A DNA stretch of 46,740 bases from a bacterium (GTDB lineage: Bacteria > CAIWAD01). The stretch spans positions 1 through 46,740 of the forward strand of contig JAUIFJ010000026.1 in NCBI GenBank assembly GCA_030429345.1. The letters are read 5' to 3'. Positions 24,179 through 40,922 of this stretch are shown here, piece after piece; positions within the stretch are counted from its first letter, which is position 1; each line of letters opens with the position of its first letter. The translations under genes were made by a program, and so were the position numbers. The notes under the pieces are model-generated. The model was not told the origin of the DNA. It saw only the letters and a list, made by a program, of their open reading frames with translations, and made no database searches.

Positions 24179-24305
24179 GTCCTTTAGACCTCGAAGTGTT
24201 CTGAATCTGTCAAGAGCGGCAGGATCTGAACACTCTCCGCTGTTTTTGCTTTTTCCCCCTCAAGCCTAACTCCCTGTTTTTCAGGACATGACCTCTCTCC
24301 ATGTT

Positions 24306-24323
24306 TTTGGCATGCGGCTTGCT
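24306..24323 (+). promoter_or_regulatory. Sigma-54 promoter (second secreted paralog)
   Basis: TTGGCAT-GCGGC-TTGCT: GG at 24309-24310, ten bases, GC at 24321-24322. It lies about 72 bases before the chosen ATG at 24394, close to the spacing at the first paralog. Confidence 0.8.
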
Positions 24324-24393
24324 CTTCTTGCTGGCGAAGAAGAAGTGCCTGTTCCCCGAACAGCAAATGCCCTAAACAGTGAAGGAAAGAGTT

Positions 24394-25430: not shown

Positions 25431-25649
25431 TTCCTTCAACTCCTGCTCGTCCTGGCTGACGCCAGCAACAAGTCCCGGCACCACTACCAGTCCTACCGGC
25501 CCAGCACGCATCCAAATCCGCACTCCTGCCGGAATCTGCACACTCACCCCGAAATCCGACAGAAAAAGCACACTTTTACAGTCTGGTCACAAAGCTGGCT
25601 TCGCGCTTAAAGCATTGTGTTTATTCAGTGTGGGAGCTCCACGACTGGA

Positions 25650-25666
25650 TTGGCACAATGCTTGCC
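25650..25666 (+). promoter_or_regulatory. Sigma-54 promoter (third secreted paralog)
   Basis: TTGGCAC-AATGC-TTGCC: GG at 25652-25653, ten bases, GC at 25664-25665. It lies 56 bases before the ATG at 25722. Confidence 0.85.
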
Positions 25667-25721
25667 AAAGATTGCAGAAATTAGCAACCACCAATCCTTA
25701 GGACTTTTGAAGGGGGAACAA

Positions 25722-26693
25722 ATGAAGATGAGCAAGATTCCCGTTGTGCTGTTCCGCACGGCTCTGGTCATCAGCGTGACCGCTGTTGGCGCCAAGGCTT
25801 TCACGGGAGATGTAGCGGTCGATTTCGTCGGCCCGGATGTCGCTGTCCAGCTGGATCCCATGGACGTCGGTCTGCCCGTGCAGGCTCCCGGCGGAACGGT
25901 TTCCGGTTGGGAATTCACGGCGGTCCTGTTCGAGCTGGATGCCGCCAACGACATGCTGCGCGTGGGCCTCGACTATGTCGGTCACGCCGGCGACGCCGAC
26001 GGTGATGGCGATCCTTCCAACAGCAGCGCCTGGCTGCTGGGCAACGGCGGCTTCGACTTCGCCAACCTGGGCGGTACCGAGTCGATCTGCATCGCTTTCG
26101 ATTTCGACAGCGACATGAACATGGACGTCATCGCTGGTGTGAGCGCCATGACGGACACCTATTCGGTCAACGCCTTCAACAATGGCGGCCTGCTGCCCTT
26201 CAGCTTCGGCGCGCCGATGCCCATGCATCAGGGTGCCTACATGATTGGCCCCGATTTCGAGCTGGAACTGACCAACCTGAGCGGTCTGGCCGACTACACG
26301 AACATGGACGAGTACTGCTTCTACTACTCCGTGTTCAGCGGTTCCTATGCTGACGACGGTATTGGCGAGGACTTCAAGTTCGGCGAAGTCTGCCTGGACA
26401 ACCGCAGTGCGGACGCCCAGGAAGTCGCGGGTGATTTCGGTCTGGCTGCCGCCTACCCGAATCCCTTCAACCCGACCACGACCCTGTCCTTCCAGACTCC
26501 CGAGACCGGCATGGCCAACCTGAGCGTCTACAACCTGGCCGGCCGCAAGGTCGCCACGCTGGTTGACGGCATGGTCGACGCCGGTAATCACGAGGTCGTT
26601 TTCGATGCCTCGAACCTGAGCAGCGGCGTGTATTTCTACACCCTGCGCACCGCGAACCTGGTCGAGACCCGCAAGATGGTCCTGACCAAGTAA
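25722..26693 (+). CDS. Secreted sorting-domain protein, paralog 3 of 3
   Basis: 323 residues. A signal peptide ends near GAKA; the passenger keeps the shared TESICIAFDFDSDMNMDVIAGV and DDGIGEDFKFGEVCLDNRSAD segments with both Cys; the sorting block NPFNPTTTLSF follows, then SNLSSGVYFYTL and a final RKMVLTK. It is more diverged from paralogs 1 and 2 than they are from each other, mostly near residues 195-230 and in the last third. ATG 25722 follows AGGGGGAACAA; a longer open frame from 25617 would include the promoter and is rejected. Own sigma-54 promoter and terminator. Confidence 0.9.
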   Translation: MKMSKIPVVLFRTALVISVTAVGAKAFTGDVAVDFVGPDVAVQLDPMDVGLPVQAPGGTVSGWEFTAVLFELDAANDMLRVGLDYVGHAGDADGDGDPSNSSAWLLGNGGFDFANLGGTESICIAFDFDSDMNMDVIAGVSAMTDTYSVNAFNNGGLLPFSFGAPMPMHQGAYMIGPDFELELTNLSGLADYTNMDEYCFYYSVFSGSYADDGIGEDFKFGEVCLDNRSADAQEVAGDFGLAAAYPNPFNPTTTLSFQTPETGMANLSVYNLAGRKVATLVDGMVDAGNHEVVFDASNLSSGVYFYTLRTANLVETRKMVLTK

Positions 26694-27224: not shown

Positions 27225-28442
27225 TTATCCGCAACCACCGCCAACGACCTTGGGCTTTTTCAGCTGGATGCGATCCGGCCAGGAAAGTCTGTCAAAGGTA
27301 CCGGGCAGGGGGCGGGAAATCGTTCTTCGGCTACCCAGAGCCTGCTGAAAACCCTGGTCCGCGCGATCCTGCGCGCCCTCCAGGACCTGATAGTCGGCCG
27401 CGTCCCCTCCGCATGCCTCCAGCCAGGGCTGCAGACCATCGGCCAGGTAGTAGAGATTGCCAAGCCCCAGGCGGTGGAAGGCCTTCCAGGCCTGGCGCGC
27501 GCTCGCCTCGTCCTCGGCAACGAGCAGGGTCACTCGTCCGCTTTGACCGCGTGCTTCTTCCGCATAGGCCTGCATCCCCGTCGGCACCATGCGACGCGCG
27601 TCGCGCAAATGGAAGAGATTGAAGGAGGATTCCGGACGCAGATCCAGGATCTGCAGGTCCATGCGGTTGTCGCGCATGGTGCGCAGGGCTTCCGCGGGAC
27701 CGACCGCAAAGGCCCCATTTTCCAAGGCGCGATGGAGAGTATCCGGTTGCTTCCTCCAGTAGTACACGGGTCCGGGCTCCTCGATCAGGAACAGGGCCAG
27801 GGCGAAGACCACGAAAGCGCCATGAGCGACTGCTCGCATTTTGCTGGCCCGGTTGAAGGTTCGTGAATGGAACTGGCGCTGTATGACAGCCGCCAGGGCG
27901 AAGAGTGCCAGAGCCAGGAAAACGACTCCCAGGAGGACCACCGGGCGGCTGCTGTCGAAGAGCTGCGTCAGATCCTGCCGGCCGTAGTCTCCAAGGGTCC
28001 AGAGTGCTTCGAGTTTCCGGAAGGATTCACCGAAGGAGAACATGCCGACCAGGGCGCCAAGGACGAAGAAAAGACCGTCCAGCTTCAAGGTCGCCAGGGC
28101 AACCAGCGATGTGCCGGGACAGAATCCGCCGACAATGAAGCCGACGCCCATCAGCCCTCCGCCAATGAGTGCCGAGGCCAACCAGGTCGGCGGCAGCCAG
28201 ATCGTCTCCAGCACCAGCCATCCTGCAGCACCGGCCAGCCCCAGCAGCAGGGCCGCGGTGACGATGGCCGTGAACATGACGCGCAGAACGGCCAGGTCGC
28301 GGAAATAGAACTGGCCGGCCAGCTTGCGGCTGTCCCCGAATCCGGCACTTTCCAGAATGAAACCGAAGGCCATGCCGATTCCCAGCATGAGCAACAGGGA
28401 GGGCAGGTCGGAGGCGTGAGCCTCTGGAGCGATGGGAAACAT
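27225..28442 (-). CDS. YeeE/YedE sulfur transporter half fused to a Cys-less rhodanese-like domain with GGC tail (leftward operon)
   Basis: 405 residues. The first 230 or so form membrane helices of the YeeE/YedE family (SUF transporter), with AFGFILESAGFGDSRKLAGQ and GFIVGGFCPGTSLVALATLKLDG, which holds the conserved Cys of thiosulfate-type channels. A rhodanese-like part follows (LQILDLRPESSFNLFHLRDA ... GNLYYLADGLQPW). The active-site loop reads TLLVAEDEASARQ, with no Cys. The protein ends KKPKVVGGGCG, a flexible lysine/glycine tail with a single Cys. It is last in the operon and follows the short YeeE/YedE gene by three bases. I infer that it receives imported sulfur on the C-terminal Cys. 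Homologous to the protein encoded at 37120-38313. Confidence 0.88.
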   Translation of the reverse strand: MFPIAPEAHASDLPSLLLMLGIGMAFGFILESAGFGDSRKLAGQFYFRDLAVLRVMFTAIVTAALLLGLAGAAGWLVLETIWLPPTWLASALIGGGLMGVGFIVGGFCPGTSLVALATLKLDGLFFVLGALVGMFSFGESFRKLEALWTLGDYGRQDLTQLFDSSRPVVLLGVVFLALALFALAAVIQRQFHSRTFNRASKMRAVAHGAFVVFALALFLIEEPGPVYYWRKQPDTLHRALENGAFAVGPAEALRTMRDNRMDLQILDLRPESSFNLFHLRDARRMVPTGMQAYAEEARGQSGRVTLLVAEDEASARQAWKAFHRLGLGNLYYLADGLQPWLEACGGDAADYQVLEGAQDRADQGFQQALGSRRTISRPLPGTFDRLSWPDRIQLKKPKVVGGGCG

Positions 28443-28445
28443 GGT

Positions 28446-28976
28446 CTACTCCTGAGTCCAGAGCCGGCCCAGGGGGCGAGCCAGCGTGTAGGCCGCAATG
28501 AAAACGCTGAACATGAAAATCCAGGCTCCGACGGAAAGCATGGCCCCGCCGCTGAGCGCCAGACCGGAAGTGCACCCGCGGGCAAAGCGCGCACCGAATC
28601 CCATCAGCACTCCGCCCGCAAAGGCGAACAGCCAGCGCTGCTTCTTCCCCAGCAGCGGACCTCGCCGTGTCTCGACACGCATGCGGCCGTGCAGCACGCC
28701 GCTGAGCGCTCCGCCGATCAGCACTCCGATCACCTGCAGCACAAGCCAGTGGTCGAAGGTGTTGCTGGCTGCCATGGGCGCCGTATACGGATTCTGCAGG
28801 ATGTGGTCCGGCTGGAACAGTCCCTGGGCCATCAGGATCAGGCGGTGCAGTCCTCCGGAAGCGCCCAGTCCGTGTCCGGTCAATATAAAGGCTCCGAAAA
28901 GCAGCAGGCCCAGCAGCAGGCCGGCAACGGTCGGGTTCCAGTAGCGTTCGCCGCCCTGGGGAAGGTCGTGTTTCAT
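28446..28976 (-). CDS. YeeE/YedE family sulfur transporter half (leftward operon)
   Basis: 176 residues, four to five membrane helices. The signature GFGARFARGCTSGLALSGGA carries the conserved Cys of YeeE/YedE proteins, which import thiosulfate or related sulfur species. Full-length transporters have two such halves; here the second half is the next gene (27225-28442), so the pair probably makes one split transporter. It starts four bases inside the cytochrome b gene (ATGA 28973-28976). Homologous to the protein encoded at 36620-37129. Confidence 0.92.
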   Translation of the reverse strand: MKHDLPQGGERYWNPTVAGLLLGLLLFGAFILTGHGLGASGGLHRLILMAQGLFQPDHILQNPYTAPMAASNTFDHWLVLQVIGVLIGGALSGVLHGRMRVETRRGPLLGKKQRWLFAFAGGVLMGFGARFARGCTSGLALSGGAMLSVGAWIFMFSVFIAAYTLARPLGRLWTQE

Positions 28977-29611
28977 CTTTCGGCCCCTTCTGCGTGCCCC
29001 TGGGGCAGGTCCTCGTAGCCCGTGATCATGGCGACGAAATTGCTGGCGGGCGTGTGACCCGTCGTCGCCAGGTAGATGTGCGACACCAGGAAGACCAGCA
29101 GCATCCAGGCCAGCAGCAGGTGCAAGCTCGCCAGCAGGCCGATCCAGGTGGGTGGAAGCATGCCGCGCAAGCCTGCATGGCCGCTCCAGAGCAGGAGGCC
29201 GCTGAAAACCTGTCCCGGCAGGGCGATATTGAGCAGCGCCAGGTAGGTCAGCTTCTGCAGCGGATTCAGCTTGGCCTGGCGCGTCTTCTCCACAGGATGG
29301 TCCTCGCCGCGGAAAATGCCTCCCGTGTAATACCTGGCCTGCCGCAGGGCCAGGCCGAAGAATCCCGGGTCGTCGGGCAGGAACTGCAGGATCTCCCGCG
29401 AGAAGATGTGGTACAACAGCCCCAGCAGGGCATTGAGCGCCAGCGCCAGGCCGGCCCAGCGATGCAGGAACTCGGCGAAACGGAAATCCAGCAACAGCGG
29501 CAGGTCGGGACGGTGCACGACCGCTCCGGTCCAGAAGAGCAGCAGGATCACGCCGGCCTGGACCCAGTGCCAGGCGCGCTCGTGCAGGTCATACATTCGA
29601 ACGCGTTGCAT
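28973..29611 (-). CDS. Membrane cytochrome b (di-heme, FdnI/PhsC-like)
   Basis: 212 residues with four membrane helices. Conserved His residues that can bind two b-type hemes occur in YDLHERAWHW, FLHRWAGLALALN, SLHLLLAWMLL and VSHIYLATTGH; the TGH and the closing MITGYED are typical for the cytochrome b subunit of formate dehydrogenase and thiosulfate reductase. It should pass electrons between the quinone pool and the multiheme cytochromes encoded just upstream. GGAGAATCC precedes the ATG; it overlaps the heptaheme gene (TGATG) and the next gene (ATGA). Confidence 0.93.
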   Translation of the reverse strand: MQRVRMYDLHERAWHWVQAGVILLLFWTGAVVHRPDLPLLLDFRFAEFLHRWAGLALALNALLGLLYHIFSREILQFLPDDPGFFGLALRQARYYTGGIFRGEDHPVEKTRQAKLNPLQKLTYLALLNIALPGQVFSGLLLWSGHAGLRGMLPPTWIGLLASLHLLLAWMLLVFLVSHIYLATTGHTPASNFVAMITGYEDLPQGHAEGAER

Positions 29612-31110
29612 CAGGATTCTCCTTCCCGCCGGGAACCGGCGCGCCAGCGCAGGAAGCCATGGCTGCAGACCGCCACCAGGGTCGCCATCAGCAGGACCAG
29701 TCCTGTGACGTCGAGCATGGCGCTCTTCTGTCCGGGCATGTACCCGTGGTTCCCGCGTGCGGATTGTGCGACAAGCCCCTGGCCCGCGACCGGCAACAGG
29801 GTGGGCTCGGTGTATACATCTTGGGGATCGCGGAAGGGGGGCGCCTCCCCGTCCGCGGACAGCGCGACGGGCATGCGAAAAGAGGCAGCCTCCGGATGAT
29901 GGCAGCTGCCGCAGTCCCGCAATGCCCGGCTTCCGTCCTGAATGCCGTGCTGCAGTTCGACAATGCGCAGTTCACGTCGGGCATCTTCGACCAGCAGGAC
30001 CAGGTTGACCGGAACATAGCGCGCCTTTCCCATGTGATCCGTCTTCTCAAGCAGCAGCGGTTTGGCACCCCTTTGCAGAAGGCGGCTGTCCGATGGCGGT
30101 CCCCCGGCTCCGCGCCAGCTGCTCTCCACGACCTTTCCCTGGGCCAGGCGTAGCTCGGCCAGGGCCCCGGCGGGCATTTCCGGAATATGGCATGCCCTGC
30201 AGTCCAGCCTTTCGAAATGCGATTCGCGGTAGGGCAGCCACTCGTGTGGCAGGAAAGGATCGTGGCAATCGCGGCAGCTGCGCATGTCCTGCGCCTCCCC
30301 GGCATCGCCGACGGAGGCGAGCCTGTGCGACGGCTGTTCCAGCCAGTCGCCGAAGCCCTGCCGTCGCGGTTCGTAGAGCAGGTGGGGCGGACTCAGGTCC
30401 GCGTCCAGCCTCCGCTGCATGGGATTGTCAATGCCGTGATGACAAGCCGTGCACTCGAGCAGCGCGCGGGCATGCACATCCCAGGGATCATGCCGGCCTG
30501 TCTTGTCCGCCAGGTTCAGCGGGCTGTCGGACAGACGCTGCGCCGAGTAGAACTGCCCCTGCCAGGCCCAGTCCGCGGGAACAGCATCCTGCAGCAGTGC
30601 GTCGCCGCCGCCCGCTTCGGCCAGGCCATGGCAGGTGCCGCAGCTCGAGCGGCTGCCTGCCTGCAGCGGCAGGCGATCCACGGGCCAGGCGCCATCGGGT
30701 CCGAAAGCATCCGTGTTCCAGGCCAGGGCTTCCGGGTCCACCAGCTCGCTGGCCGCCAGGGTCGCCATGCCGGCGTGCTCCGCATCCCCTTCGGACAGCC
30801 GGCGGATCCGCTGCGGCAAGTCGGCCTGGTCCAGGTGGCAGGCGAAACAGTCCGGTACCGGGTCGCCTTCCGTATACAGCCAGTCGCTGCTGGCCGCCTC
30901 GCCAGGGCCGCCGCCCAGTCCCGGCGTGTGGCTGCTGTGCGTCGAGATGTACTCCACATCGTGACACGACCCGCAGCTCTGGACGAAGTCGTGGGGCCGG
31001 GCAGTCGAGGTCACCGGTCGCCCCGCATTGTCCAGCAGCCGGAAGTCCGGATGGGCCGCCTGCAGCGGCACCGCGCCGAGCAGCGGGAGCAGGAACACCA
31101 GGATCCTCAT
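29611..31110 (-). CDS. Heptaheme c-type cytochrome with C-terminal membrane anchor
   Basis: 499 residues. A signal peptide is followed by seven CxxCH motifs (CGSCH, CFACH, CGTCH, CTACH, CRDCH, CRACH, CGSCH). A single hydrophobic segment near the C-terminus (MLDVTGLVLLMATLVAVCS) anchors it in the inner membrane, with the hemes outside. It most likely relays electrons between the cytochrome b and the octaheme protein. It starts four bases inside the octaheme gene (ATGA 31107-31110), so translation is coupled. I do not recognise a named family. Confidence 0.9.
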   Translation of the reverse strand: MRILVFLLPLLGAVPLQAAHPDFRLLDNAGRPVTSTARPHDFVQSCGSCHDVEYISTHSSHTPGLGGGPGEAASSDWLYTEGDPVPDCFACHLDQADLPQRIRRLSEGDAEHAGMATLAASELVDPEALAWNTDAFGPDGAWPVDRLPLQAGSRSSCGTCHGLAEAGGGDALLQDAVPADWAWQGQFYSAQRLSDSPLNLADKTGRHDPWDVHARALLECTACHHGIDNPMQRRLDADLSPPHLLYEPRRQGFGDWLEQPSHRLASVGDAGEAQDMRSCRDCHDPFLPHEWLPYRESHFERLDCRACHIPEMPAGALAELRLAQGKVVESSWRGAGGPPSDSRLLQRGAKPLLLEKTDHMGKARYVPVNLVLLVEDARRELRIVELQHGIQDGSRALRDCGSCHHPEAASFRMPVALSADGEAPPFRDPQDVYTEPTLLPVAGQGLVAQSARGNHGYMPGQKSAMLDVTGLVLLMATLVAVCSHGFLRWRAGSRREGES

Positions 31111-32540
31111 TGGGCCACCACCTTTCCCTGCTTGCGCCGCCCGCCAACCAGCAGCGGATCCTCCTGGTAGCCCAGGGCTTCCCAGTCCATGCGCGATTGC
31201 TCCCCGTGGCAGTCGTCACACTGCAGCGAACGGCTCTTCTCGGCGACCATGTGAGACAGAGGCCAATACATTTCCGTTTCGGTGAAGCCGTAGCTGCCGC
31301 TGTAGGGGATTCCGCTGGCCTCGCTTCCCAGTTCCAGGGCCTGGTCCCAGTCGTAGGTCGTCCAATAGCCGCCGGGTCCGAAGGTCTTCGGCACCAGCAG
31401 GGTCCGGTGTTCCGTGTCGTAGACCTGGCGGCCCCGGTGGATCTTGAAGGGCCAGATCCGCGCTTGCTCGTCGCGGATGTCTCCCAGGGGTCCCGCCAGG
31501 ATGGTCGGTTGCTCGGCCAGGCTGTCCCCGGCCAGGTAGTGGCGGGCCTTGCCGTTGTACCACTCGTACTCGGGAACCACCTCGTGCTCCCACTCGAAGG
31601 CGCCCTTCCTGGCCATGTAGCGGTGGGGATCGGCGACCGCGCGTTCGCGCTCCCTGTCCCCGGCGACGGACCAGTCCCAGAACAGCTTGGTGCCTTCGTC
31701 CTGGGCCATTTCCGGAATATGGCAGGTCTGGCAGGCCAGGGTCCGGCCATGGAGATTGAGCCGCTCGTCGTCGTGCGGCGATTCCGTGTGACACTGATCG
31801 CATGTCACACGCTGATCGCTCTCCAGGCTGACCGAAATGGCCCGCCCCGGAATCCTGTGCTCCTCGGTCCAGTGGCAATCCGTGCACTGGAAGTCGTGCT
31901 TGCCCATGTGCACGTCGAGGCGCGGACCGGGATGCAGCAGGCTCTGGTCCAGGTCTCCGTGCTTGACAGCGTTTCCGCCGCCGCCGTTGAAGTGGCAGCT
32001 TCCGCAGGTCTGCCGGCTGGTCGGTCCGACGCTGGCCGCGACCAGGCGCAGATCGACGGCGGGATCCGGCAATCCGGACAGTCCCTTGCGATAGCTTCCG
32101 CTGCCGTCGTGGCAGACCAGGCAGTCCACGTTCTCCTCGATGGAGAAATCGAACTCGGCATCCTTCCAGCCATAGCCCGCGTGGCAGGTCGTGCAGCGAG
32201 GCCAGTTCGACTCCACCCCTATACAGAAGTTGTTCAGGGCATTGGCCTTGCCGAAGCGGATCGGCGCTTCACCGGGCCGCACTTCCATGGGACTGCCCTG
32301 CCAGTTCCAGTGGGCTGTCTGCTGCACATGTTTCGCGGCCTCTTCGTGGCAGGCAAGACAAGTGCGGGTGACTTCCGGACCGCTGGCCAGGCTGTCCGTG
32401 TAGAAAGGGGAATGATCCAGGGGTTTTCCACGCGTCGGAAGGTGTTCCCAGGGATCGTTGCCCTGGACTGCTCCCGGCAGGAGCGCGCCCAGCAAAAGCG
32501 CGTGCAGCAGGATCTGTGCCGTCATATGGATCCGGTTCAT
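31107..32540 (-). CDS. Octaheme c-type cytochrome, tetrathionate reductase family
   Basis: 477 residues with a signal peptide and eight CxxCH motifs (CLACH, CTTCH, CLVCH, CGSCH, CTDCH, CDQCH, CQTCH, CDDCH). NALNNFCIGVESNWPRCTTC and the following AGYGWKDAEFDF, VDCLVCHD and FNGGGGNAVKHGDLD are close to the octaheme tetrathionate reductase family. The characterised Shewanella enzyme reduces tetrathionate and also nitrogen compounds, so the substrate here is a family-level guess. I chose ATG 32538-32540 (AGGAAGAG upstream). It is first in the leftward operon, beside a candidate FNR-type site. It is not related to the molybdenum Ttr enzyme. Confidence 0.92.
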   Translation of the reverse strand: MNRIHMTAQILLHALLLGALLPGAVQGNDPWEHLPTRGKPLDHSPFYTDSLASGPEVTRTCLACHEEAAKHVQQTAHWNWQGSPMEVRPGEAPIRFGKANALNNFCIGVESNWPRCTTCHAGYGWKDAEFDFSIEENVDCLVCHDGSGSYRKGLSGLPDPAVDLRLVAASVGPTSRQTCGSCHFNGGGGNAVKHGDLDQSLLHPGPRLDVHMGKHDFQCTDCHWTEEHRIPGRAISVSLESDQRVTCDQCHTESPHDDERLNLHGRTLACQTCHIPEMAQDEGTKLFWDWSVAGDRERERAVADPHRYMARKGAFEWEHEVVPEYEWYNGKARHYLAGDSLAEQPTILAGPLGDIRDEQARIWPFKIHRGRQVYDTEHRTLLVPKTFGPGGYWTTYDWDQALELGSEASGIPYSGSYGFTETEMYWPLSHMVAEKSRSLQCDDCHGEQSRMDWEALGYQEDPLLVGGRRKQGKVVAQ

Positions 32541-32873
32541 GGAACTCTTCCTTTGGAAATGCATCGGCGGACAAGGTAACCGAATAGCTATTTAGATATT
32601 TGACGAAGATCAATATTGACCAATTAATCCTACTCGCTCATCAAGCTGGATTTTGCCCATTGCCTATTGAATTATCACAGGTTGTGATTGGATCGAAAGA
32701 GTGCCACAGAAAGCTCTGCATGATTTTGTTCAATAAGTCAATCAACTAGCCACTGCATAAACAACCACCAAGACAGCTCTACATAATGATATGTTCATGA
32801 AAGCATGAGTCAGGTCAAGAGTCCCGGCCCGCCAACCCTATACAATGGAGGCAGTCAGATTTCCGGAGGGCGC
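32541..32873. promoter_or_regulatory. Shared divergent promoter region of the two respiratory operons
   Basis: 333 bases, clearly more AT-rich than the flanking genes. It contains TTGAC-GAAG-ATCAA at 32600-32613, close to the FNR/CRP-type consensus TTGAT-N4-ATCAA, about 60 bases before the octaheme start. AT-rich stretches such as CATAATGATATG near 32790 could serve the rightward operon. No gene is seen. Confidence 0.55.
32600..32613. promoter_or_regulatory. FNR-like binding site
   Basis: TTGAC-GAAG-ATCAA matches 9 of 10 defined positions of the FNR/DNR consensus TTGAT-N4-ATCAA. Its place between two anaerobic-type respiratory operons supports oxygen control; no FNR gene is in the window. 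Confidence 0.45.
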
Positions 32874-35096
32874 ATGGAACGCAGGGAGTTTCTGAAAATC
32901 GGCGGAGCGGGTGCAGCGGGGAGCGTGCTCCTGGGCGGCCTTGGAACGGACTGGTTCGGCAGCTACGGAGACGAGATCAAGGATCCCGGCAGCGACGGAG
33001 AGAAGATCGTTCCCAGTTTCTGCGAACTCTGCTTCTGGAAATGCGGCATCCTGGCCCATGTGCGCAATGGCCGCGTCACCAAGATCACCGGCAATCCAAA
33101 GCATCCGCTGTCGCGCGGCCGCCTTTGCCCGCGCGGCGCGGGCGGGACCGGCCTGCTCTATGATCCGGACCGCCTGCAGCAACCCCTCGTGCGCGTCGGC
33201 AAGCGCGGGCAGCAGAAATTCGAGGCCGTCAGCTGGGACACCGCCCTGGACGAAGTGGCCGAGGGCTTCGAGAAGATCCGCCGGCAACACGGACCCGAGC
33301 ACCTGGCGCTGTTCTATCACGGCTTCGGCGCCAACTGGATGAAGCACCTCTTCAAGGCCTACGGCAGTCCCAATATCAGCGCCCCCAGCTACGCCCAGTG
33401 CCGCGGTCCCCGCGACGTGGGCTTCGACCTGACCTTCGGTTCCGGTGTCGGTTCTCCGGAGAACACGGACATGGCCAACACGCGCTGCCTGGTGCTCATC
33501 GGAAACCACCTGGGCGAGAACATGCACAACACGCAGGTCCAGGATTTCAGCGAAGCGATCCGCAACCGGGCCGACCTGATCGTCGTCGATCCCCGCTTTT
33601 CCGTCGCCGCCTCAAAAGCGCGCTATTGGCTGCCGATCCGCCCGGGTTCGGATCTGGCCCTTCTGCTGGCCTGGGCCCATGTCCTGGTCCACGAGGGCGG
33701 GTACGATCGTGAGACGGTCAACCAGCACGGATACGGCTTCGACGCCTTTCGCGAGCACCTGAAAAGTCACACGCCGGAGTGGGCCTATCCGCGCACGGGC
33801 ATCAAGCCTGCCGTGATCCGCGAAACCGCCGCCCTGATGGCCGGTGCCGCGCCGCGCGCCATCGTCCACCCCGGGCGCCATGTGACCTGGTATGGCGACG
33901 ACACGCAGCGCAGTCGCATGATCGCCCTGGTGAATGCCCTGCTGGGATCCTGGGGACGGCGCGGCGGCTTCCTCGTCCCCTCGCAGGTCGAACTGGCCGA
34001 CTATCCGATGCCCGAGATCAGGAAGAACGGCCTCCAGCCGGCGGACCGTCCGGCGGCCAGCCAGTACCCGCTGGCCGACACGGTTCTGGCCCAGGGCCTG
34101 TGCAACGCCACCATACCCGGGTATCACGACTACGACCTCAAGGGCTGGATGGTCTACGGCAGCAACCTGCCGACCACCCTGCCCGATCCGCGCAAGACCT
34201 ACGAGGCGATTCGCAAGCTGGATTTCCTTGTCACCATCGATGTGCTCCCGGCGGAGATCTGCGGCTGGTCCGACGTGGTCCTGCCCGAATGCACCTACCT
34301 GGAGCGCTGCGACGACCTGCACAACCCGTACTACAAGGAACCCTATGTCGCCGTACGACAGAAGGTCGTCGAACCGCTCCACCAGACGAAACCCGGCTGG
34401 TGGATCGCGCGCGAGCTCGCCGACCGGCTGGGCCTGGAGCAGTTCTTTCCCTGGAAGGACAGCGAGGAGTACGCCATGGAACGCGCCCACGGCGCCGGTC
34501 TGGACTGCGAGACCCTGCGTCGCGACGGCGTCGCGACGGGCGTGTCCCCGCCGACCTGTGTCGAGGACGGCCTGCGCCCCGAGTTCTGGACCGACAGCGG
34601 GAAGATCGAGTTCTACAGCAACCGGCTGCAGCAGGCCGGCTTCGACCCCATGCCGGTCTACACCGATCACGGCGACCCGCCCGCCGGCTACTTCCGTCTG
34701 CTCTTCGGCCGCACGCCGACGCACACCTTCGGTCGTACGACAAACAATCGCCTGCTGTCGGAGACCTTCAAGGGCAACGAGGTCTGGCTCAACGCCGAGA
34801 CGGCCCGTCTGCGCGGCCTCAAACACGGCGAGCAGGTCTACCTCCAGAACCAGGATGGCGTGCGCAGCAGTTTCAGCGCTCCCCTGAAGGTCACGGAGCG
34901 CATTCGTCCCGACGCCGTCTTCCTGGTGCACGGCTACGGCCGCAAGGCCAGGGAGCTGCGTTTCGCCTTCGGCCGCGGCATCGACAGCGCGGAACTTGTC
35001 ACACAGGCGAAAGTGGATCCGATCATGGGCGGCACGGGCATGAACGTGAACTTCGTCGCGATCCTGCGCGCGGAAGATGTCGAGGAGGTGGCCTGA
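32874..35096 (+). CDS. Molybdopterin oxidoreductase catalytic subunit, PsrA/PhsA-like (polysulfide/thiosulfate reductase)
   Basis: 740 residues. The N-terminus RREFLKIGGAGAAG is a twin-arginine signal, so the enzyme is exported folded. A [4Fe-4S] site follows (CELCFWKCGI ... LCPRG), then molybdopterin-binding regions. SYAQCRGPRD near residue 176 supplies the likely Cys ligand to molybdenum, as in PsrA/PhsA. GRTPTHTFGRTTNN near the C-terminus is part of the cofactor-binding domain. It is followed by the B and C subunit genes, the classic order for polysulfide, thiosulfate or tetrathionate reductases. ATG 32874 follows GGAGG; a longer frame from 32805 lacks support. Exact substrate and direction cannot be told. 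Confidence 0.92.
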   Translation: MERREFLKIGGAGAAGSVLLGGLGTDWFGSYGDEIKDPGSDGEKIVPSFCELCFWKCGILAHVRNGRVTKITGNPKHPLSRGRLCPRGAGGTGLLYDPDRLQQPLVRVGKRGQQKFEAVSWDTALDEVAEGFEKIRRQHGPEHLALFYHGFGANWMKHLFKAYGSPNISAPSYAQCRGPRDVGFDLTFGSGVGSPENTDMANTRCLVLIGNHLGENMHNTQVQDFSEAIRNRADLIVVDPRFSVAASKARYWLPIRPGSDLALLLAWAHVLVHEGGYDRETVNQHGYGFDAFREHLKSHTPEWAYPRTGIKPAVIRETAALMAGAAPRAIVHPGRHVTWYGDDTQRSRMIALVNALLGSWGRRGGFLVPSQVELADYPMPEIRKNGLQPADRPAASQYPLADTVLAQGLCNATIPGYHDYDLKGWMVYGSNLPTTLPDPRKTYEAIRKLDFLVTIDVLPAEICGWSDVVLPECTYLERCDDLHNPYYKEPYVAVRQKVVEPLHQTKPGWWIARELADRLGLEQFFPWKDSEEYAMERAHGAGLDCETLRRDGVATGVSPPTCVEDGLRPEFWTDSGKIEFYSNRLQQAGFDPMPVYTDHGDPPAGYFRLLFGRTPTHTFGRTTNNRLLSETFKGNEVWLNAETARLRGLKHGEQVYLQNQDGVRSSFSAPLKVTERIRPDAVFLVHGYGRKARELRFAFGRGIDSAELVTQAKVDPIMGGTGMNVNFVAILRAEDVEEVA

Positions 35097-35644
35097 TGCT
35101 CGAGCAGCAATTCGGCATGACCGTGGATACGCGCACCTGCGTCGGCTGCGCCGCCTGCGTGATCGCCTGCAAGACCGAGAACCGGCTGGCGGAGGGCTAC
35201 GTCCGCAACTGGATCACGACCCAGACCCGCGGCCGTTTTCCGGAACTGGTGATGACGATCCGCTCCGAGCGCTGCAACCATTGCCGCAGCGCGGCCTGCG
35301 TGCGCGCCTGCCCGACCGGTGCATCACACTATGCTGCCGGCGGAACCGTACAGGTGACCGGGTCCAAGTGCACCGGCTGCAAGGCCTGCATGGCCGCCTG
35401 CCCCTATGACGCGCGCTATGTCGACGAGCAGAGCGGCACCGTCGACAAGTGCACCTTCTGCAATCACCGCACCAGCCGCGGCATGGCGACCACGGCCTGC
35501 CAGGAGGTCTGCCCGACCCGCAGCATCGTCTTCGGGGATCTCAACGATCCGGACAGCGAGATCTCCCACCTGCTGGCGCAGCGTGACTGGTATACACTCA
35601 AACCGGACGCCGGCACGCGCCCCAGCCACTACTTCCTCAAGTAG
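35096..35644 (+). CDS. Iron-sulfur electron-transfer subunit, PsrB/PhsB-like
   Basis: 182 residues with sixteen Cys in four ferredoxin-type groups (CVGCAACVIACKTEN, RCNHCRSAACVRACP, KCTGCKACMAACPYDARY, KCTFCNHR...ACQEVCP), enough for four [4Fe-4S] clusters. It should carry electrons from the membrane subunit to the molybdenum subunit. There is no signal peptide, so it is probably exported as a complex with the Tat-signalled A subunit. The ATG overlaps the A-subunit stop (TGATG), with GGAGG upstream. Confidence 0.95.
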   Translation: MLEQQFGMTVDTRTCVGCAACVIACKTENRLAEGYVRNWITTQTRGRFPELVMTIRSERCNHCRSAACVRACPTGASHYAAGGTVQVTGSKCTGCKACMAACPYDARYVDEQSGTVDKCTFCNHRTSRGMATTACQEVCPTRSIVFGDLNDPDSEISHLLAQRDWYTLKPDAGTRPSHYFLK

Positions 35645-35652
35645 GAGTCCCC

Positions 35653-36609
35653 ATGGAAGCCACCTCGACACGCGCCAATCCGCTGGTGGACCCGGGTCTG
35701 ACGATCTGGAACCAGGATGTGGCGATCTACCTCTTCCTGGGCGGCATTGTCGCCGGCGTCATGATCCTGAGCGGCGCCATGCGCCTGTGGTACAAACAGG
35801 AAGAACCCAGCCTGGCCCTGCGGTTGCTGCCCTGGGGCAACCTGGCGCTGATCAGCATCGGCATGTTCTGCCTTTTCCTCGACCTGGAGAACCGCTTCAA
35901 CTCCTGGCGCTTCTACCTGGTCTTCAAGGCCTACTCGCCCATGAGCTGGGGCGCCTGGGTGCTGCTGCTGGTGTATCCGGTTTCGGCGCACATGGCGTGG
36001 GCGGAAACCCCTGCGCATTGGCGGGAAACCGTGTTGCGAAAGGTTCCCCTGCTGCGGCCCTGGGGGGAATGGAGCGTCCGCGCCCGTCGCAATTTCGCCG
36101 CCCTGAGCATCGTCAGCGGCAGCGTGCTCGGCATCTACACCGGCATCCTGCTGGGCGCCATGCCCAGCCGCCCCTTCTGGAACAGCAGCCTGCTCGGGCC
36201 CCTGTTCCTTGTTTCCGGTGTATCGACCGGGGCGGCCTTCATGCTCCTGTTCAGGCTGAACCAGGGCGAACGCCGCTTCCTGGGCTTCCTCGATTTCCTG
36301 CTGATTCTCGCCGAACTGGGCATCATCGCCCTCTGGATCATCGGCATGGCGGCGGGGGGCGAGGCCAGCCTGCAGGCCCTGAAACTGATCTTCGGCGGTC
36401 CGTATACGGCCGCCTTCTGGTCGCTGGTCATCGCCCTGGGGCTCGTGACACCGGCCATTGCCGAGTTCATCGAATACAAGCACCGCGCCATCCCGGGTCG
36501 CGGCGCGGCACTGCTCGTGCTGGGCGGGGGATTCGCCCTGCGCTGGATCATGGTATACGCGGGGCAACACTCCGGCTGGGCCAGCGAGGCCTCGGCCGGC
36601 CTGTTCTAG
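35653..36609 (+). CDS. NrfD/PsrC-family membrane subunit
   Basis: 318 residues with eight membrane helices. LGGIVAGVMILSGAMRL near the start and SPMSWGAWVLLLVYP in the middle are NrfD/PsrC landmarks. This integral subunit exchanges electrons with quinones and anchors the A and B subunits. It follows the B gene by eight bases, with AGGAG before the ATG. Together the three genes make a complete Psr/Phs-type complex. Confidence 0.95.
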   Translation: MEATSTRANPLVDPGLTIWNQDVAIYLFLGGIVAGVMILSGAMRLWYKQEEPSLALRLLPWGNLALISIGMFCLFLDLENRFNSWRFYLVFKAYSPMSWGAWVLLLVYPVSAHMAWAETPAHWRETVLRKVPLLRPWGEWSVRARRNFAALSIVSGSVLGIYTGILLGAMPSRPFWNSSLLGPLFLVSGVSTGAAFMLLFRLNQGERRFLGFLDFLLILAELGIIALWIIGMAAGGEASLQALKLIFGGPYTAAFWSLVIALGLVTPAIAEFIEYKHRAIPGRGAALLVLGGGFALRWIMVYAGQHSGWASEASAGLF

Positions 36610-36619
36610 GAGAAGGCGA

Positions 36620-37129
36620 ATGAATACGCGCAGCTACTGGAACCCCTACCTGGCCGGAGTCCTGCTCGGCCTGGCCCTGCTGGCGGCCTTCGTCGTTGCA
36701 GGCCAGGGCCTGGGCGCCAGCGCTTTTCCCAAGCGCGTGATCGCCGGGGCCTGTGATGTCTTCAGTCCGGAATGGACCGCCGGCAGCGCCGCCTTCGGCA
36801 AGTACGTCGGCAGCGGAAACCCGCTGGCCAACTGGCTGGTGGTCGAGGTGATCGGCGTGCTTATCGGCGGCTTCCTCGGCGCGGTGAGCGCCGGACGCCT
36901 GAAGGGCGAAGTCGTCCGCAGTTCCAATGTGACACAGGGCCGACGCCTCTTCTTCGCCCTGCTGGGCGGAGTGATCATGGGCTTCGCCGCCTCCCTGGGG
37001 CGCGGCTGCACATCCGGGCAGGCCCTGTCGGGCGGGGCCAGCCTCGCCGGCGGCAGCTGGGCCTTCATGATGATGGTCTTCGCCGGCGGCTATGCCGTCG
37101 CCTGGTTCGTGAGGAAACAATGGATCTGA
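36620..37129 (+). CDS. YeeE/YedE family sulfur transporter half (rightward operon)
   Basis: 169 residues with four to five membrane helices. SYWNPYLAGVLLGLALLAAF at the start and GFAASLGRGCTSGQALSGGA near the end match the short YeeE/YedE protein of the leftward operon (28446-28976), including the conserved Cys. It should form one split transporter with the next gene, which it overlaps by ten bases. GGAGA precedes the ATG at 36620. Placement after psrABC-like genes suggests that it moves the sulfur compound used or produced by that complex. Confidence 0.93.
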   Translation: MNTRSYWNPYLAGVLLGLALLAAFVVAGQGLGASAFPKRVIAGACDVFSPEWTAGSAAFGKYVGSGNPLANWLVVEVIGVLIGGFLGAVSAGRLKGEVVRSSNVTQGRRLFFALLGGVIMGFAASLGRGCTSGQALSGGASLAGGSWAFMMMVFAGGYAVAWFVRKQWI

Positions 37130-38313
37130 CCTTCCCCTGGCTCCCGCGCGGCTTCTTCGGAGAACAGGGCGGCCTGCTGACGGCCCTCCTGATTGGCGCG
37201 GTCTTCGGTTTCGCCCTGGAACGGGCGGGCTTCGGCAACGGGCGCAAGCTGGCGGCCCAGTTCTATTTGTACGACATGACGGTCTTCAAGGTCATGTTCA
37301 CCGCCATCGTCACGGCCATGGTGGGCCTCTACGCGCTGTCAGGAGTCGGCCTCGTCCAGCTGGATCTGGTCTGGATCAATCCGACCTACCTGGCGCCCCA
37401 GCTGCTGGGCGGTTTCCTGCTGGGCGTGGGCTTCATTGTCAGCGGCCTGTGTCCGGGCACGGCCTTCGTGTCCCTTGTCTCGGGCAAACTGGATGCACTC
37501 GTCGTCCTGGTCGGCGTCTTCCTGGGTGTGCTGCTCTTCGCTTTCGGCCTGGATGGGCTGCCTGCACTGGAGGCCCTGTATACGAGCGGCTCGGGCGAGG
37601 TCCTGACCCTGCCGGGACTGCTGGGGATCTCCGGCAGCTGGCTGGCTGCCGGCGTGGCCCTGATGGCCCTGGGCGCCTTCATCGGCGCGGAGAAGGTGGA
37701 AGAGCGGATGGCGGCGCGCCTGAAGAAGAACGGCGCGGACCTGGATGGAAGCCGTGTGACAGATTCCCGGGGCAAGTACTGGGCCATGGGCAGCCTGCTG
37801 GCCCTGAGCCTGCTAGCGGCCACCGCCGCGCCGATGCTGGAGCAGGAAAACCCGCGGCAACTGGTGGCGAGCGGAGTGCGCCCCTTGCCCCTGGCCGAGC
37901 GCATCATCGCCCATGAACCAGCGCTGCGGATCCTGGACCTCCGGGAAGCCGGAACGGACCTCAGGATTCCGGGACTTGGAAAGGCATCTCCCACATCCCC
38001 TCCGGCCGATCTGCTGCCGGGCCAGCACGTGGTGCTGATCGCCGAGGGCGACCTGGACGCGAAGGACCTGGCGGGCTGGCCGCAAGGACCGGAGTACGAA
38101 GTCCTGGAAGGGGGCGCCCAAGCCTGGAAGGAACAGGTCCTGACGCCACTGGAGGCCGAAGTATACAACCAGGAGGCGCTGGACCGGGCGAAGGTCCAGA
38201 ACGAGATCTGCGCCTGGTTCAACGGGACGGAAAGCAAGGCGGTCAGCGCACCGCCGCCGCCCGTGATCCAGCCGGCCGTCGGCTCGCGCAAGAAACCCAA
38301 GGGCGGCTGCTAG
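37120..38313 (+). CDS. YeeE/YedE sulfur transporter half fused to a Cys-less rhodanese-like domain with GGC tail (rightward operon)
   Basis: 397 residues. The membrane part has AVFGFALERAGFGNGRKLAAQ and GFIVSGLCPGTAFVSLVSGKLD, matching the long transporter of the leftward operon with its conserved Cys. The C-terminal part is a degenerate rhodanese-like domain (LRILDLREAG, then HVVLIAEGDLDAKD and VLEGGAQAWKEQVL) in which the usual Cys loop is replaced by AEGD. A linker rich in Pro leads to the end, SRKKPKGGC. GAGGAAACA precedes the ATG at 37120. The last 45 bases (38274-38318) occur again at 41268-41312 beside the IS110 element. I infer that sulfur is handed on through the terminal Cys. Confidence 0.88.
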   Translation: MDLTFPWLPRGFFGEQGGLLTALLIGAVFGFALERAGFGNGRKLAAQFYLYDMTVFKVMFTAIVTAMVGLYALSGVGLVQLDLVWINPTYLAPQLLGGFLLGVGFIVSGLCPGTAFVSLVSGKLDALVVLVGVFLGVLLFAFGLDGLPALEALYTSGSGEVLTLPGLLGISGSWLAAGVALMALGAFIGAEKVEERMAARLKKNGADLDGSRVTDSRGKYWAMGSLLALSLLAATAAPMLEQENPRQLVASGVRPLPLAERIIAHEPALRILDLREAGTDLRIPGLGKASPTSPPADLLPGQHVVLIAEGDLDAKDLAGWPQGPEYEVLEGGAQAWKEQVLTPLEAEVYNQEALDRAKVQNEICAWFNGTESKAVSAPPPPVIQPAVGSRKKPKGGC

Positions 38314-38332: not shown

Positions 38333-38366
38333 AAAAGCCCCCGGGGACCATTTCCCGGGGGCTTTT
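38333..38366. terminator. Bidirectional Rho-independent terminator
   Basis: Stem AAAAGCCCCCGGG / CCCGGGGGCTTTT. It works in both directions between the rightward sulfur operon and the leftward porin-cytochrome operon. Confidence 0.9.
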
Positions 38367-38390
38367 CCTGTTCCGTCGCCGAAGCCGACT

Positions 38391-39557
38391 TCAGAAGGCG
38401 CTTGTCACACCGAATACCAGCCGGTTCGCCTCCCGCTCAGCGTCTCGTGTGCCTTCGAGAATCAATCGCAGGTTCCGCGCCACGAGAACCGTACCCGACA
38501 AGGTCCAGGTCTCGAAATCGTGCACATCAAGGTCCGAATCGATCCGGTTGTATAGACCAGTCATCATCCAGCGGGACTGCTCGCCCCGGGGCATATAGAT
38601 CAGTTCAGCGCAGATGCCGCTGGTCTCGATCTCCTCGCCATCGCTGAAGGTCGGATCACTGTCCGTGCGCAGGAGGTACTGGCCGGTAAAGGCAAGAGGT
38701 CCGACTCCAATGCCGATATCCGGCCCCATGTAGGTCACTTCATTGGTATACGTGCTTGATGCGGGCTGTTCCTTGCCAATGTATACGAAGCCGCCCAGCG
38801 AGAACAAGTCCCCGAAGCCCTGCAGCACGCGCAGGCCGGCATTCTTGTAGCGGTCGGAATCGTAGGTCTTCTCCGCTCCGGACTGCGGAATGCCGTTCCC
38901 GTTCACGATGAATCCCACCAGGTCGGTCCCGGTCTGCTCGATCCCGTAGACAAGCATCATGCCGCGGTCATAGGCCAGGTTCGTGCTCGAATCGCCGATG
39001 CGGGTCTTGTAGATCTCGTAATCCTGCACCGTGAGACGCAGTTCGCGCTTCATCAGGGGATCCGATGTCTGGAACTGCCCGACCATCACATCCAGGGGCG
39101 TATCAAAGATGTTGTCGAAATGGACGTAGGCGTCCTCGACGCCCGCAACTTCCCCGTGTTCGGACATGTAGAAGTAGAAATAGTAGCCGATGTTGCGGTA
39201 CAAGGTCCCGCCGGAAAGCAGCTTGACTCCCCAGGGGGTCTGCAGGTCCGTCGTTGCCTCGGACTCGGAATCCCAGGTCGCAAAAGCGTCGAAGCGCGCC
39301 GCCAGGGGAAAGTCCTTGTTCAGCCAGAGCATCTTGTCGCCCGCCGTCACGTAGTCGCGTTCCTTCTCGCTTTCTTTCATGATGAAGCCGTTGCCGGCGA
39401 ACTCCTCGCCGTAGGCCGTCAGGCGCGGGAAGGGGGCATGGCATGTCGTACAGGAAACCTTGTATCTCCTGGCGAATGCCGGGATCGCCCATGTGCTCTG
39501 TGCGGAGATGACCAGCGTAAGCAGCGTCAACAGGATGAAACGGGAACGCGGACTCAT
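38391..39557 (-). CDS. Outer-membrane porin-like protein with N-terminal c-type heme motif
   Basis: 388 residues: a signal peptide, then AFARRYKVSCTTCHAPFPRL with one CxxCH heme site, then a series of amphipathic beta strands (for example GGTLYRNIGYYFYFYMS) ending in Phe, as expected for an outer-membrane barrel. The phrase CxxCHxxFPRLxxYGEEF is typical of porin-cytochrome proteins found with extracellular or metal-linked electron transfer. It follows the pentaheme gene by 24 bases on the same strand, with CTGGAGG before its ATG. Together they may carry electrons across the outer membrane (inference). Confidence 0.88.
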   Translation of the reverse strand: MSPRSRFILLTLLTLVISAQSTWAIPAFARRYKVSCTTCHAPFPRLTAYGEEFAGNGFIMKESEKERDYVTAGDKMLWLNKDFPLAARFDAFATWDSESEATTDLQTPWGVKLLSGGTLYRNIGYYFYFYMSEHGEVAGVEDAYVHFDNIFDTPLDVMVGQFQTSDPLMKRELRLTVQDYEIYKTRIGDSSTNLAYDRGMMLVYGIEQTGTDLVGFIVNGNGIPQSGAEKTYDSDRYKNAGLRVLQGFGDLFSLGGFVYIGKEQPASSTYTNEVTYMGPDIGIGVGPLAFTGQYLLRTDSDPTFSDGEEIETSGICAELIYMPRGEQSRWMMTGLYNRIDSDLDVHDFETWTLSGTVLVARNLRLILEGTRDAEREANRLVFGVTSAF

Positions 39558-39581
39558 TGGATCCTCCAGATGAAGATGGTT

Positions 39582-40922
39582 CTATTCGTAGACTTCGAAC
39601 CATGTGAATTGCGAGTTGACGAGCATCGGCTCGCTTTCTTCCTCAGGCACGTCTAGCAGTTCCGCAACGGGTCCTACCAGCAGACTGTAGTTCAGGCTGG
39701 CATGGACCTCGACCCTGCCCTCGGCGATTTCGTCGGGCAGCTCCCAGGTGAAGGTCTCGATTTTTGTCTCACGGGGTTCGAAGCGGTAGTCGACCCCCAG
39801 GGAGGCCGTGTTCCATTGCATGATCGTCATCCGGCCCTGGTCATCGAAATAGGGCATGCGGAAAATGCGGTCCCCGAAGGGCACGCCATCCCTCTGCACG
39901 CCCTCGAAGTCCGGAAGATCCAGCGGGACCCCCAGGTCCTGGTAGGCCAGCACATCGGCAGCGATCGTATACTCTTCCCCTTCGAAGCCTTTCGGATCGA
40001 CGGGCAGGTGGAAACGCTGCCCCTCGGAATCGACCGCTTCCACATGCAGCCAGAGAATCCGGTCCTCCACCGAACCCGTCGGAAATTTGTGTCCCGTCTT
40101 GCCGTTGAAGAGCTGGACCTGGACCACGACGGTTCCACCCGTTTCCACTTCGCGCTCATCCGGGTGCATCCGCAGCTCGATCGTTCCCCGGACCTTGCCT
40201 GGATCATGCGCTCCATGGAAGAGGTGCTGGGCAACCATGTCTTCGTCGGCCATGCTGGCTGACCGTCCCTTCGCCCTGGGCATGTGGCACTGCTGGCAGG
40301 GCACGCCCTGCTCGGCGTAGGGGCCTTCTTTCCATTCCAGGTGCGTCGATTTGACCCAGACACCGCTTGGCGCACGTTCGTTGTGGCAGATGCCGCAGAA
40401 TTCGGCCTGGCTGAAAAGCGAGTTGGCCTCCGTGTCGTGATGCGGCGACTCCCGTCCGGGCTTCGAGCCTCGCTTCACTCGACCGGGATCGACCACGTAG
40501 TTGAAGTTGAAAGGCAGATCCCCGCTGAATCCGGTAATCGAATGACAGAAGTCGCAGCTGACGGACTCGTTGGCGCGGGAGTTCTCCGAAGGCCTGGGTG
40601 GGGGAATATCGCCGGCAAGCCATGCCAGGGGCGCATGGCAGCCATTGCAGCCGTCTACGGCATCCTTGAAGCGGGGATCCTTCTCGGCATGCTTGACGGC
40701 CAGGTCGAAGTATTCGATTTCGTCCCAGTGATGGGTGAAAGCCTTGCTCATCATCGACTGGTCCCATTGCCAGTAGATGTCCGTGTGACAGGCCTTGCAC
40801 GCTTCGGGACTTTCGAAGTCATCGTAGGACAGACTGCCCCGGGTGGAAGTGGCCCCCTGTTCAGCAGCCAGGACAGCAGTGGTCACGAAGAGGAGCAGAC
40901 AGGCGGGAGAGAGGCAGGACAT
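39582..40922 (-). CDS. Pentaheme c-type cytochrome (cytochrome c554-like) with beta-sandwich tail
   Basis: 446 residues with a signal peptide and five CxxCH motifs (CKACH, CNGCH, CDFCH, CGICH, CQQCH). The arrangement EACKACHTDIYWQWDQSMMSKA and SVSCDFCHSITG recalls the cytochrome c554/c-prime family. From about residue 240 to the end it has a beta-rich domain (GGTVVVQVQLFNGKTGHKFP) seen in many multiheme cytochromes of unknown substrate. GGAGGCGCA precedes the ATG. First gene of a two-gene operon with the porin-cytochrome. Confidence 0.9.
   Translation of the reverse strand: MSCLSPACLLLFVTTAVLAAEQGATSTRGSLSYDDFESPEACKACHTDIYWQWDQSMMSKAFTHHWDEIEYFDLAVKHAEKDPRFKDAVDGCNGCHAPLAWLAGDIPPPRPSENSRANESVSCDFCHSITGFSGDLPFNFNYVVDPGRVKRGSKPGRESPHHDTEANSLFSQAEFCGICHNERAPSGVWVKSTHLEWKEGPYAEQGVPCQQCHMPRAKGRSASMADEDMVAQHLFHGAHDPGKVRGTIELRMHPDEREVETGGTVVVQVQLFNGKTGHKFPTGSVEDRILWLHVEAVDSEGQRFHLPVDPKGFEGEEYTIAADVLAYQDLGVPLDLPDFEGVQRDGVPFGDRIFRMPYFDDQGRMTIMQWNTASLGVDYRFEPRETKIETFTWELPDEIAEGRVEVHASLNYSLLVGPVAELLDVPEEESEPMLVNSQFTWFEVYE

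Follow-up and report, generated by a model that had tools for sequence, protein, structure and literature searches.

This work concerns a pair of divergent operons at positions 27225-38313 of a bacterial contig of 46,740 nucleotides (JAUIFJ010000026.1), the whole of which we call the window. The left operon encodes an octaheme tetrathionate reductase family cytochrome (OTR), a heptaheme cytochrome and a cytochrome b, and the right operon encodes the three subunits of a Psr-type molybdenum enzyme. Both end in a short and a long gene of the YeeE/YedE transporter family, and both long proteins extend beyond the channel half into a rhodanese-like domain. We see about an even chance that the two operons are separate modules of sulfur respiration, which share a PmpAB-type channel and a tethered pseudo-rhodanese carrier that delivers sulfur to the enzymes.

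The genes were identified with Pfam, NCBIfam and PDB searches, in a host genome of 4.2 Mb that is 98% complete. An earlier reading of the sequence (the preliminary description) had placed all ten genes correctly, and it had rightly called the operons tightly packed. By coordinate, the intergenic gaps are 3, -4, -1 and -4 bp in the left operon and -4, 8, 10 and -10 bp in the right, i.e. the genes overlap or nearly touch. The features are as follows; AF2 stands for AlphaFold2 and Tat for twin-arginine translocation.

27225-28442, minus strand: long YeeE half (PmpB-like) with pseudo-rhodanese, 405 aa; PF04143 39 bits, PF00581 32 bits, AF2 fold, terminal Cys
28446-28976, minus strand: short YeeE half (PmpA-like), 176 aa; PF04143 82 bits, profile positions 174-309, conserved RGCTSG
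28973-29611, minus strand: cytochrome b561-type membrane protein, 212 aa; PF01292 74 bits
29611-31110, minus strand: heptaheme c-type cytochrome with a C-terminal membrane helix, 499 aa; seven CxxCH
31107-32564, minus strand: OTR, 485 aa; TIGR04315 560 bits (cut-off 375), eight CxxCH
32565-32873, no strand: divergent intergenic region of 309 bp, common to both operons
32874-35096, plus strand: PsrA-type molybdopterin subunit, 740 aa, with a Tat signal (MERREFLK); PF00384, PF04879, PF01568, match to 2VPW
35093-35644, plus strand: PsrB-type iron-sulfur subunit; PF13247 and others
35653-36609, plus strand: PsrC-type (NrfD) membrane subunit; PF03916 130 bits
36620-37129, plus strand: short YeeE half (PmpA-like); PF04143 76 bits, profile positions 174-309, conserved RGCTSG
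37120-38313, plus strand: long YeeE half (PmpB-like) with pseudo-rhodanese, 397 aa; PF04143 58 bits, fold by AF2 and Foldseek, terminal Cys
38334-38369, no strand: palindromic hairpin (AAAAGCCCCCGGGGACCATTTCCCGGGGGCTTTT) between convergent genes, seen in the sequence

Conservation of the two arms

In the right arm, PsrA aligns over its full length with the polysulfide/thiosulfate reductase of Thermus (2VPW, 690 bits). The molybdenum, iron-sulfur and NrfD subunits lie in one operon with a Tat signal, as in the PsrABC/PhsABC type. The score against the NCBIfam PhsA equivalog is 495 bits, below the cut-off of 694, and for this reason we call the enzyme Psr/Phs-type, not PhsA. A scan of named genomes with both long YeeE proteins gave at least 589 matches, of which at least 561 were confirmed as relatives. 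We examined the best 80, which are the best-scoring slice of a larger family. Genes of the related loci are mechanical open reading frames (ORFs) labelled by BLAST, with some starts wrong and fusions at contig ends uncertain, and many of the source genomes are metagenome-assembled. In about 60 of these 80, the YeeE pair has psrA, psrB and psrC as direct neighbours, usually arranged A-B-C-short-long; the relatives in Myxococcota and Bdellovibrionota have the order A-B-short-long-C. By title, the relatives come from Gemmatimonadota, Acidobacteriota, Bacteroidota/Ignavibacteria/Kapabacteria, Calditrichota, KSB1, Verrucomicrobiota, Myxococcota and Bdellovibrionales.

The right arm had been seen as a cluster before: in the Ignavibacteria, a psrABC-MerR-DUF395-rhodanese cluster has been noted in Ca. 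Thermonerobacter and linked to sulfur metabolism, and Melioribacter and Ignavibacterium have homologues of psrABC (PMC6338057). The gene order given in that passage is the order of our right operon. The same passage labels the last gene a rhodanese-related sulfurtransferase, and it contains no reference to a lost catalytic cysteine, a terminal cysteine or a version with OTR.

Several loci carry further genes around psrA. A MerR-like regulator of about 150 aa with a Cys-rich C-terminal part is found directly 5′ of psrA in L023, L030, L031, L039, L060-L062, L064, L070 and L081; no such gene was seen beside either operon in the window. Upstream of psrA, several Acidobacteriota and Ignavibacteria loci (among them L028, L044, L048, L057 and L066) encode an 11-CxxCH protein some 920 aa long, and a cytochrome b domain was detected in the L066 copy. 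Gemmatimonadota and Opitutaceae loci have other 11-12-heme genes, in divergent or downstream positions.

The left arm, too, is conserved. Its OTR, the only one in the genome above the family cut-off, falls well within TIGR04315 by score and heme count, and it matches Shewanella 1SP3 with 488 bits. It keeps CxxCHDxxGxYxK as in 1SP3, i.e. a lysine after the heme-2 motif, which would be a heme ligand. The cytochrome b561-type protein is probably the quinone-reactive subunit; its best NCBIfam match is a thiosulfate reductase cytochrome b, below the cut-off. We searched for TIGR04315 in 386 spread genomes and in 82 genomes of the phylum of genome G049, and then extracted the regions. This gave 23 assessable OTR genes with at least 3.5 kb of downstream sequence, the window included. 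A YeeE pair follows the OTR in 18 of the 23 (counting L133, whose two cytochrome ORFs compete), and in 17 of these 18 a cytochrome b, mostly with a heptaheme domain, sits in between. The heptaheme and cytochrome b proteins are fused into one in L133, L144, L165-L167, L169-L172 and the Planctomycetales locus L088, an argument for the two acting as a single quinol-cytochrome unit. The loci L131, L132, L163 and L168 have the cytochrome b and no heptaheme protein. A variant is found in L134 (genome G004), where OTR and the two YeeE genes are followed by a 631-aa cytochrome with nine hemes in place of the heptaheme/cytochrome b genes. No YeeE is annotated beside the OTR of a Paracoccus plasmid. We found no description of the left-arm operon in the open-access literature; subscription papers were outside the search.

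Each gene order thus recurs in many phyla rather than being unique to this genome, and is therefore more than chance. The preliminary description is borne out as to the redox modules themselves: the two differ, both belong to sulfur-enzyme families, both end in a split YeeE/YedE pair, and each is a conserved operon. It had further proposed that the arms cooperate in a cycle, one arm handling tetrathionate/thiosulfate and the other thiosulfate/polysulfide. The common 309-bp divergent region and the possession of a YeeE pair by each arm would suit this idea. However, among the approximately 105 related loci examined, only this genome has the head-to-head arrangement; a search of the phylum's five genomes, the 80 named loci and 26 regions from other genomes brought up no second case. 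Within the same family, G002 and G004 have the left type only and G003 the right type only. None of 19 other genomes searched for the PsrA subfamily of the window carries both arms; in G347, a related PsrA (55%) occurs together with an OTR that has no YeeE pair. The 'mirror-image' locus is therefore a correct description here and not a conserved unit: since genomes of the same family carry one arm or the other, the pairing looks like a local juxtaposition, and we rejected it as a functional unit. With no comparative support, and with YeeE pairs of separate lineages (see below), the cycle is very unlikely.

Split YeeE halves and a tethered rhodanese-like domain

The four YeeE genes of the locus are the only PF04143 genes in the genome, with scores of 39-82 bits against a cut-off of 27. 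The long proteins match positions 11-195 of the profile and the short ones positions 174-309. The conserved transport cysteine lies in a CPGT motif, found in 83 of 87 long proteins, and in an RGCTSG-type motif, found in 67 of 68 short ones. In sequence, the genes qualify as split N-terminal and C-terminal halves of the PmpAB type. In PmpA/PmpB, the split halves keep the essential cysteines; the short protein is the C-terminal half and the long protein the N-terminal half, with one conserved cysteine each, as at our locus (PMC11582611). Unlike PmpB, the long half here adds an extra helix and a pseudo-rhodanese with a terminal cysteine, and it lies within respiratory operons. The listed top matches of a structure search were all rhodaneses, with no YeeE or TsuA structure for the membrane half, so the YeeE membership of this part follows from Pfam.

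The preliminary description spoke of the same split transporter in both arms. A YeeE/YedE pair does end each arm, but the two pairs are paralogues, 45% identical in the short proteins and 49% in the membrane part of the long ones. In a tree the left and right pairs fall in separate lineages: a single clade can hold the OTR-arm rows (approximately unbiased test, p-AU 0.86), and the Psr-arm copy groups with G003 and Gemmatimonadota Psr copies; the branches are long and the tree is weak on detail. The pairs do not have the look of recent duplicates, and a recent duplication of one pair is not favoured because the tree separates them.

What do these channels carry? Kinship with the PF04143 family holds, as had been supposed, but within it the sulfur and selenium models match about equally weakly: the short YeeE reaches 39 bits with TsuA and 36 bits with the selenium YedE/FdhT. 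The left short YeeE also has a weak match to residues 235-324 of TsuA (6LEO). Against the TsuA NCBIfam model the halves score 20-39 bits with a cut-off of 400-645, which half a protein cannot reach. A preference for sulfur over selenium is for this reason drawn from the enzymes and not from the transporter.

The main rival to sulfur respiration is the respiration of selenium or tellurium oxyanions, in which PsrABC would be an Srr-like selenite reductase, the YeeE pair a selenium YedE, and the tail cysteine a carrier of Se(0). Besides the near-equal YedE score, the Srr of Bacillus selenitireducens is encoded in a Psr-like operon with rhodanese-domain genes (PMC12481199). A pentaheme cytochrome gene next to the locus (39582-40922) resembles ExtKL, and the Geobacter ExtKL cluster has a rhodanese and a porin that affect selenite reduction (PMC5877670). 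On the other hand, the full-length match of PsrA is to a polysulfide/thiosulfate reductase, OTR is a tetrathionate/nitrite enzyme, and presence in hundreds of genomes suits common sulfur better than rare selenium. We think this rival unlikely; the oxidative direction, sensor role and two-arm cycle that we also weigh are less likely.

YeeE is known to import thiosulfate together with the cytoplasmic YeeD/TusA (PMC11582611; PMC13047784). A profile search with positive controls found neither TusA (PF01206) nor the NIR_SIR sulfite reductase family in any of the phylum's five genomes, so the known cytoplasmic partner is missing. Nor is this a YTD cluster (yedE, tusA and dsrE), as there is no PF01206 and the YeeE neighbours belong to other families. 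SoxY (PF13501) had no match in the five genomes either, in a search where the control set was silent too, so its absence is not proven. Given these results, the candidate that remains as the YeeE partner is the outward-facing carrier with its tail cysteine. It resembles the YeeE-YeeD/TsuA-TsuB and YTD systems in that a YeeE channel is paired with a sulfur carrier; theirs is a cytoplasmic TusA, and the one at our locus is predicted to face outwards.

The name 'rhodanese' for the end of the long YeeE proteins holds for the fold of both copies, but PF00581 was detected in the left copy only and the catalytic cysteine is absent from both. A profile of 25 relatives matches many PDB rhodaneses, with Sud (1QXN) as a weak match, and in Foldseek the AF2 model of either copy hits rhodaneses (weak E-values, top probabilities near 1). 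Of 71 aligned carriers, two have a cysteine at the catalytic position and 69 do not, and neither window copy has a Cys in a CxxGxR-type loop. Elsewhere in the genome, four rhodanese domains have kept this cysteine. The left copy is modelled as an ordered rhodanese followed by a tail that is predicted to be disordered, with a predicted local distance difference test score (pLDDT) below 50.

In place of the loop cysteine, the carrier chains finish with a Pro/Ala-rich stretch and a cysteine, in ends such as GGC, GGCG, GGCS and EGC. The left tail ends in KKPKVVGGGCG and the right in RKKPKGGC, a trait common to both arms that the preliminary description did not notice. Among 47 carriers, selected by a criterion that ignores Cys, 46 have the terminal cysteine. 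The sole exception is the separate carrier of L035 (2776-3381), where an in-frame stop stands just before an intact KKKKKEGC (GSAPTVSKKKKKEGC); this stop may be a sequencing error or a real truncation. About half of the right-arm loci encode the carrier on its own, as a protein of about 217 residues that has a single helix at its N-terminus. All 33 of 33 fused carriers have a lysine/arginine-rich loop and then a further helix before the domain, with a mean of 5.7 Lys/Arg in the loop and 2.2 after it. The N-terminal anchor of the separate carriers has more Lys/Arg on its N side in 20 and fewer in five. This anatomy is well supported, and from the charges we infer that the carrier domain lies outside the cytoplasm, in the periplasm.

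The predicted topology bears on whether the YeeE pair and carrier are mainly a sensor or an assimilation channel beside the reductase, outside the catalytic route. A precedent is the YeeE-family protein SoxT1B, a signalling unit of Hyphomicrobium that signals to SoxR (PMC11582611), and a MerR-type regulator precedes psrA in Ignavibacteria loci. But the carrier tail would be outside the cytoplasm, and we recognised no gene for a regulator adjoining either operon in the window. We consider this role improbable, to about the degree of the cycle.

The same YeeE-carrier unit also follows a multi-domain rhodanese gene in L036, L053, L076 and L083, most of these with a signal-like start. With Psr, OTR and multi-domain rhodaneses, the partners of the unit thus include at least three types of sulfur protein. 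Elsewhere in the genome (G000 contig C65, 12596-14164; L174, L176, L181, L182) there is a protein with four rhodanese domains. At least two of these keep the catalytic cysteine, making the protein a candidate sulfur loader for the carriers.

Proposed route of sulfur and electrons

Under the reading that we prefer, of two separate respiration modules supplied by a carrier, the repeated unit would be a PmpAB-type two-piece YeeE channel with a membrane-tethered periplasmic pseudo-rhodanese, whose flexible tail bears a single cysteine (GGC, GGCG or EGC). It would be a portable, SoxY-like arm presenting sulfur to interchangeable periplasmic enzymes, here PsrA and OTR. In the periplasm, the terminal cysteine would be loaded with sulfane sulfur, as a persulfide, polysulfide or S-thiosulfonate, and the tail would swing the loaded group into the active site of the co-encoded enzyme. 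This would be the molybdenum enzyme PsrA in the right operon, with electrons from menaquinol via PsrC and PsrB, and the heme enzyme OTR in the left, with electrons from quinol via the cytochrome b and heptaheme proteins; the subunit sequences suggest a quinone link for both modules. The enzyme would cleave the S-S bond, free sulfide or thiosulfate, and return the thiol. The YeeE halves could pass sulfur species between carrier and cytoplasm, in either direction.

Known systems offer parts of this scheme. SoxY has a flexible arm that ends in a GGC-type motif, and our carrier resembles SoxYZ as a predicted periplasmic carrier with such an arm. It differs in fold, which is that of a rhodanese here and another in SoxY. 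The soluble Sud protein passes polysulfide sulfur to Psr and works through the cysteine of its rhodanese loop. In Wolinella, Sud is a periplasmic rhodanese-fold sulfurtransferase that carries a polysulfide chain, a precedent for a carrier of this fold in a Psr system (PMC3397948). Unlike Sud, the locus carrier is tethered to the membrane, and a tail cysteine has replaced the loop cysteine. For OTR, the Shewanella enzyme reduces tetrathionate, nitrite and hydroxylamine, and its surface is negative except near the catalytic heme and heme 8 (PMC4484225). The otr gene is induced 36-fold by tetrathionate in the marine Acidobacteriota Ca. Sulfomarinibacter (PMC8528874). It adjoins soxYZ in sulfide-oxidising lucinid symbionts (PMC11237559), which independently ties OTR to an arm-type carrier. 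Because of the Sud precedent, the tetrathionate induction and the soxYZ neighbourhood, we propose that protein-bound sulfur is delivered to PsrA and OTR; the loading of the tail, this delivery and the reductive direction are what we infer.

The soxYZ neighbourhood can also be read the other way. If the modules ran oxidatively, like a reduced Sox pathway, the carrier would be charged from sulfide or thiosulfate, OTR or Psr would oxidise the bound sulfur, and electrons would pass to quinone. The GGCG tail, with its likeness to the SoxY arm, would fit. The tetrathionate induction fits reduction instead, characterised PsrABC and OTR are reductases, and the phylum gave no SoxY match, with the reservation about the silent control set. 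Oxidation therefore seems to us an unlikely direction.

Several points weigh against the preferred reading of reductive, carrier-fed modules. The direction of electron flow is not readable from sequence, and charge and hydropathy are the only grounds for the periplasmic topology. In the right copy, the tail has a middling pLDDT of 52-61 and is not clearly disordered. The tail cysteine may have another use, as a metal ligand or in a disulfide bond, and the YeeE halves lean towards neither TsuA nor the selenium YedE/FdhT. Finally, five of the 23 assessable OTR genes (L130, L135, L137, L162 and L164) have no YeeE pair after them, i.e. OTR does not always need the YeeE unit.

More tentatively, we suggest a wider claim: that dead rhodaneses tethered to a split YeeE are a new class of extracytoplasmic sulfur carrier, with a GGCG/EGC swinging arm exchangeable among Psr, OTR and secreted rhodaneses; that arm-bound sulfur is the natural substrate of many octaheme 'tetrathionate reductases'; and that the heptaheme-cytochrome b protein is the dedicated quinol dehydrogenase of OTR. 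What the octaheme tetrathionate reductase does in the cell, and what split YeeE pairs are for, are two questions that meet in one conserved operon. With its putative dedicated quinone link and tail-cysteine carrier, this operon merges them into one prediction, that the tail cysteine delivers sulfur to the enzyme. If true, there would be another sulfur-carrying arm besides SoxY and DsrC, spread over many uncultured phyla, and the automatic label 'rhodanese sulfurtransferase' would need correcting for hundreds of genes.

Neighbouring genes and intergenic regions

The 309-bp region between the operons has two sigma-70-like matches, against a shuffle mean of 0.6, which is not convincing. A shared operator in this region was rejected, as the inverted repeats and promoter matches are unremarkable. 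At the other end of the right operon, the hairpin at 38334-38369 is likely a bidirectional terminator, judging by its palindrome; a shorter form of it scored as terminator-like on the minus strand.

Beyond this hairpin, and convergent with the right operon, lie the pentaheme cytochrome gene and a gene for a 388-aa protein (38391-40922, minus strand). The match of the pentaheme protein to ExtKL is 65 bits, below the cut-off. The 388-aa protein has one N-terminal CxxCH and no Pfam match, and is possibly an outer-membrane barrel. The pair recurs at L052, a locus from Bacteroidota, with identities of 60% and 48%; a psr-YeeE operon lies a few kb away there.

An IS110-type transposase gene is found at 41509-42618. 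Secreted proteins that flank the locus, at 25617-26693 and 44458-46452 (plus strand), have C-terminal sorting domains of the Por/T9SS (type IX secretion system) type, and related proteins with such domains are also found at 23156-25371.

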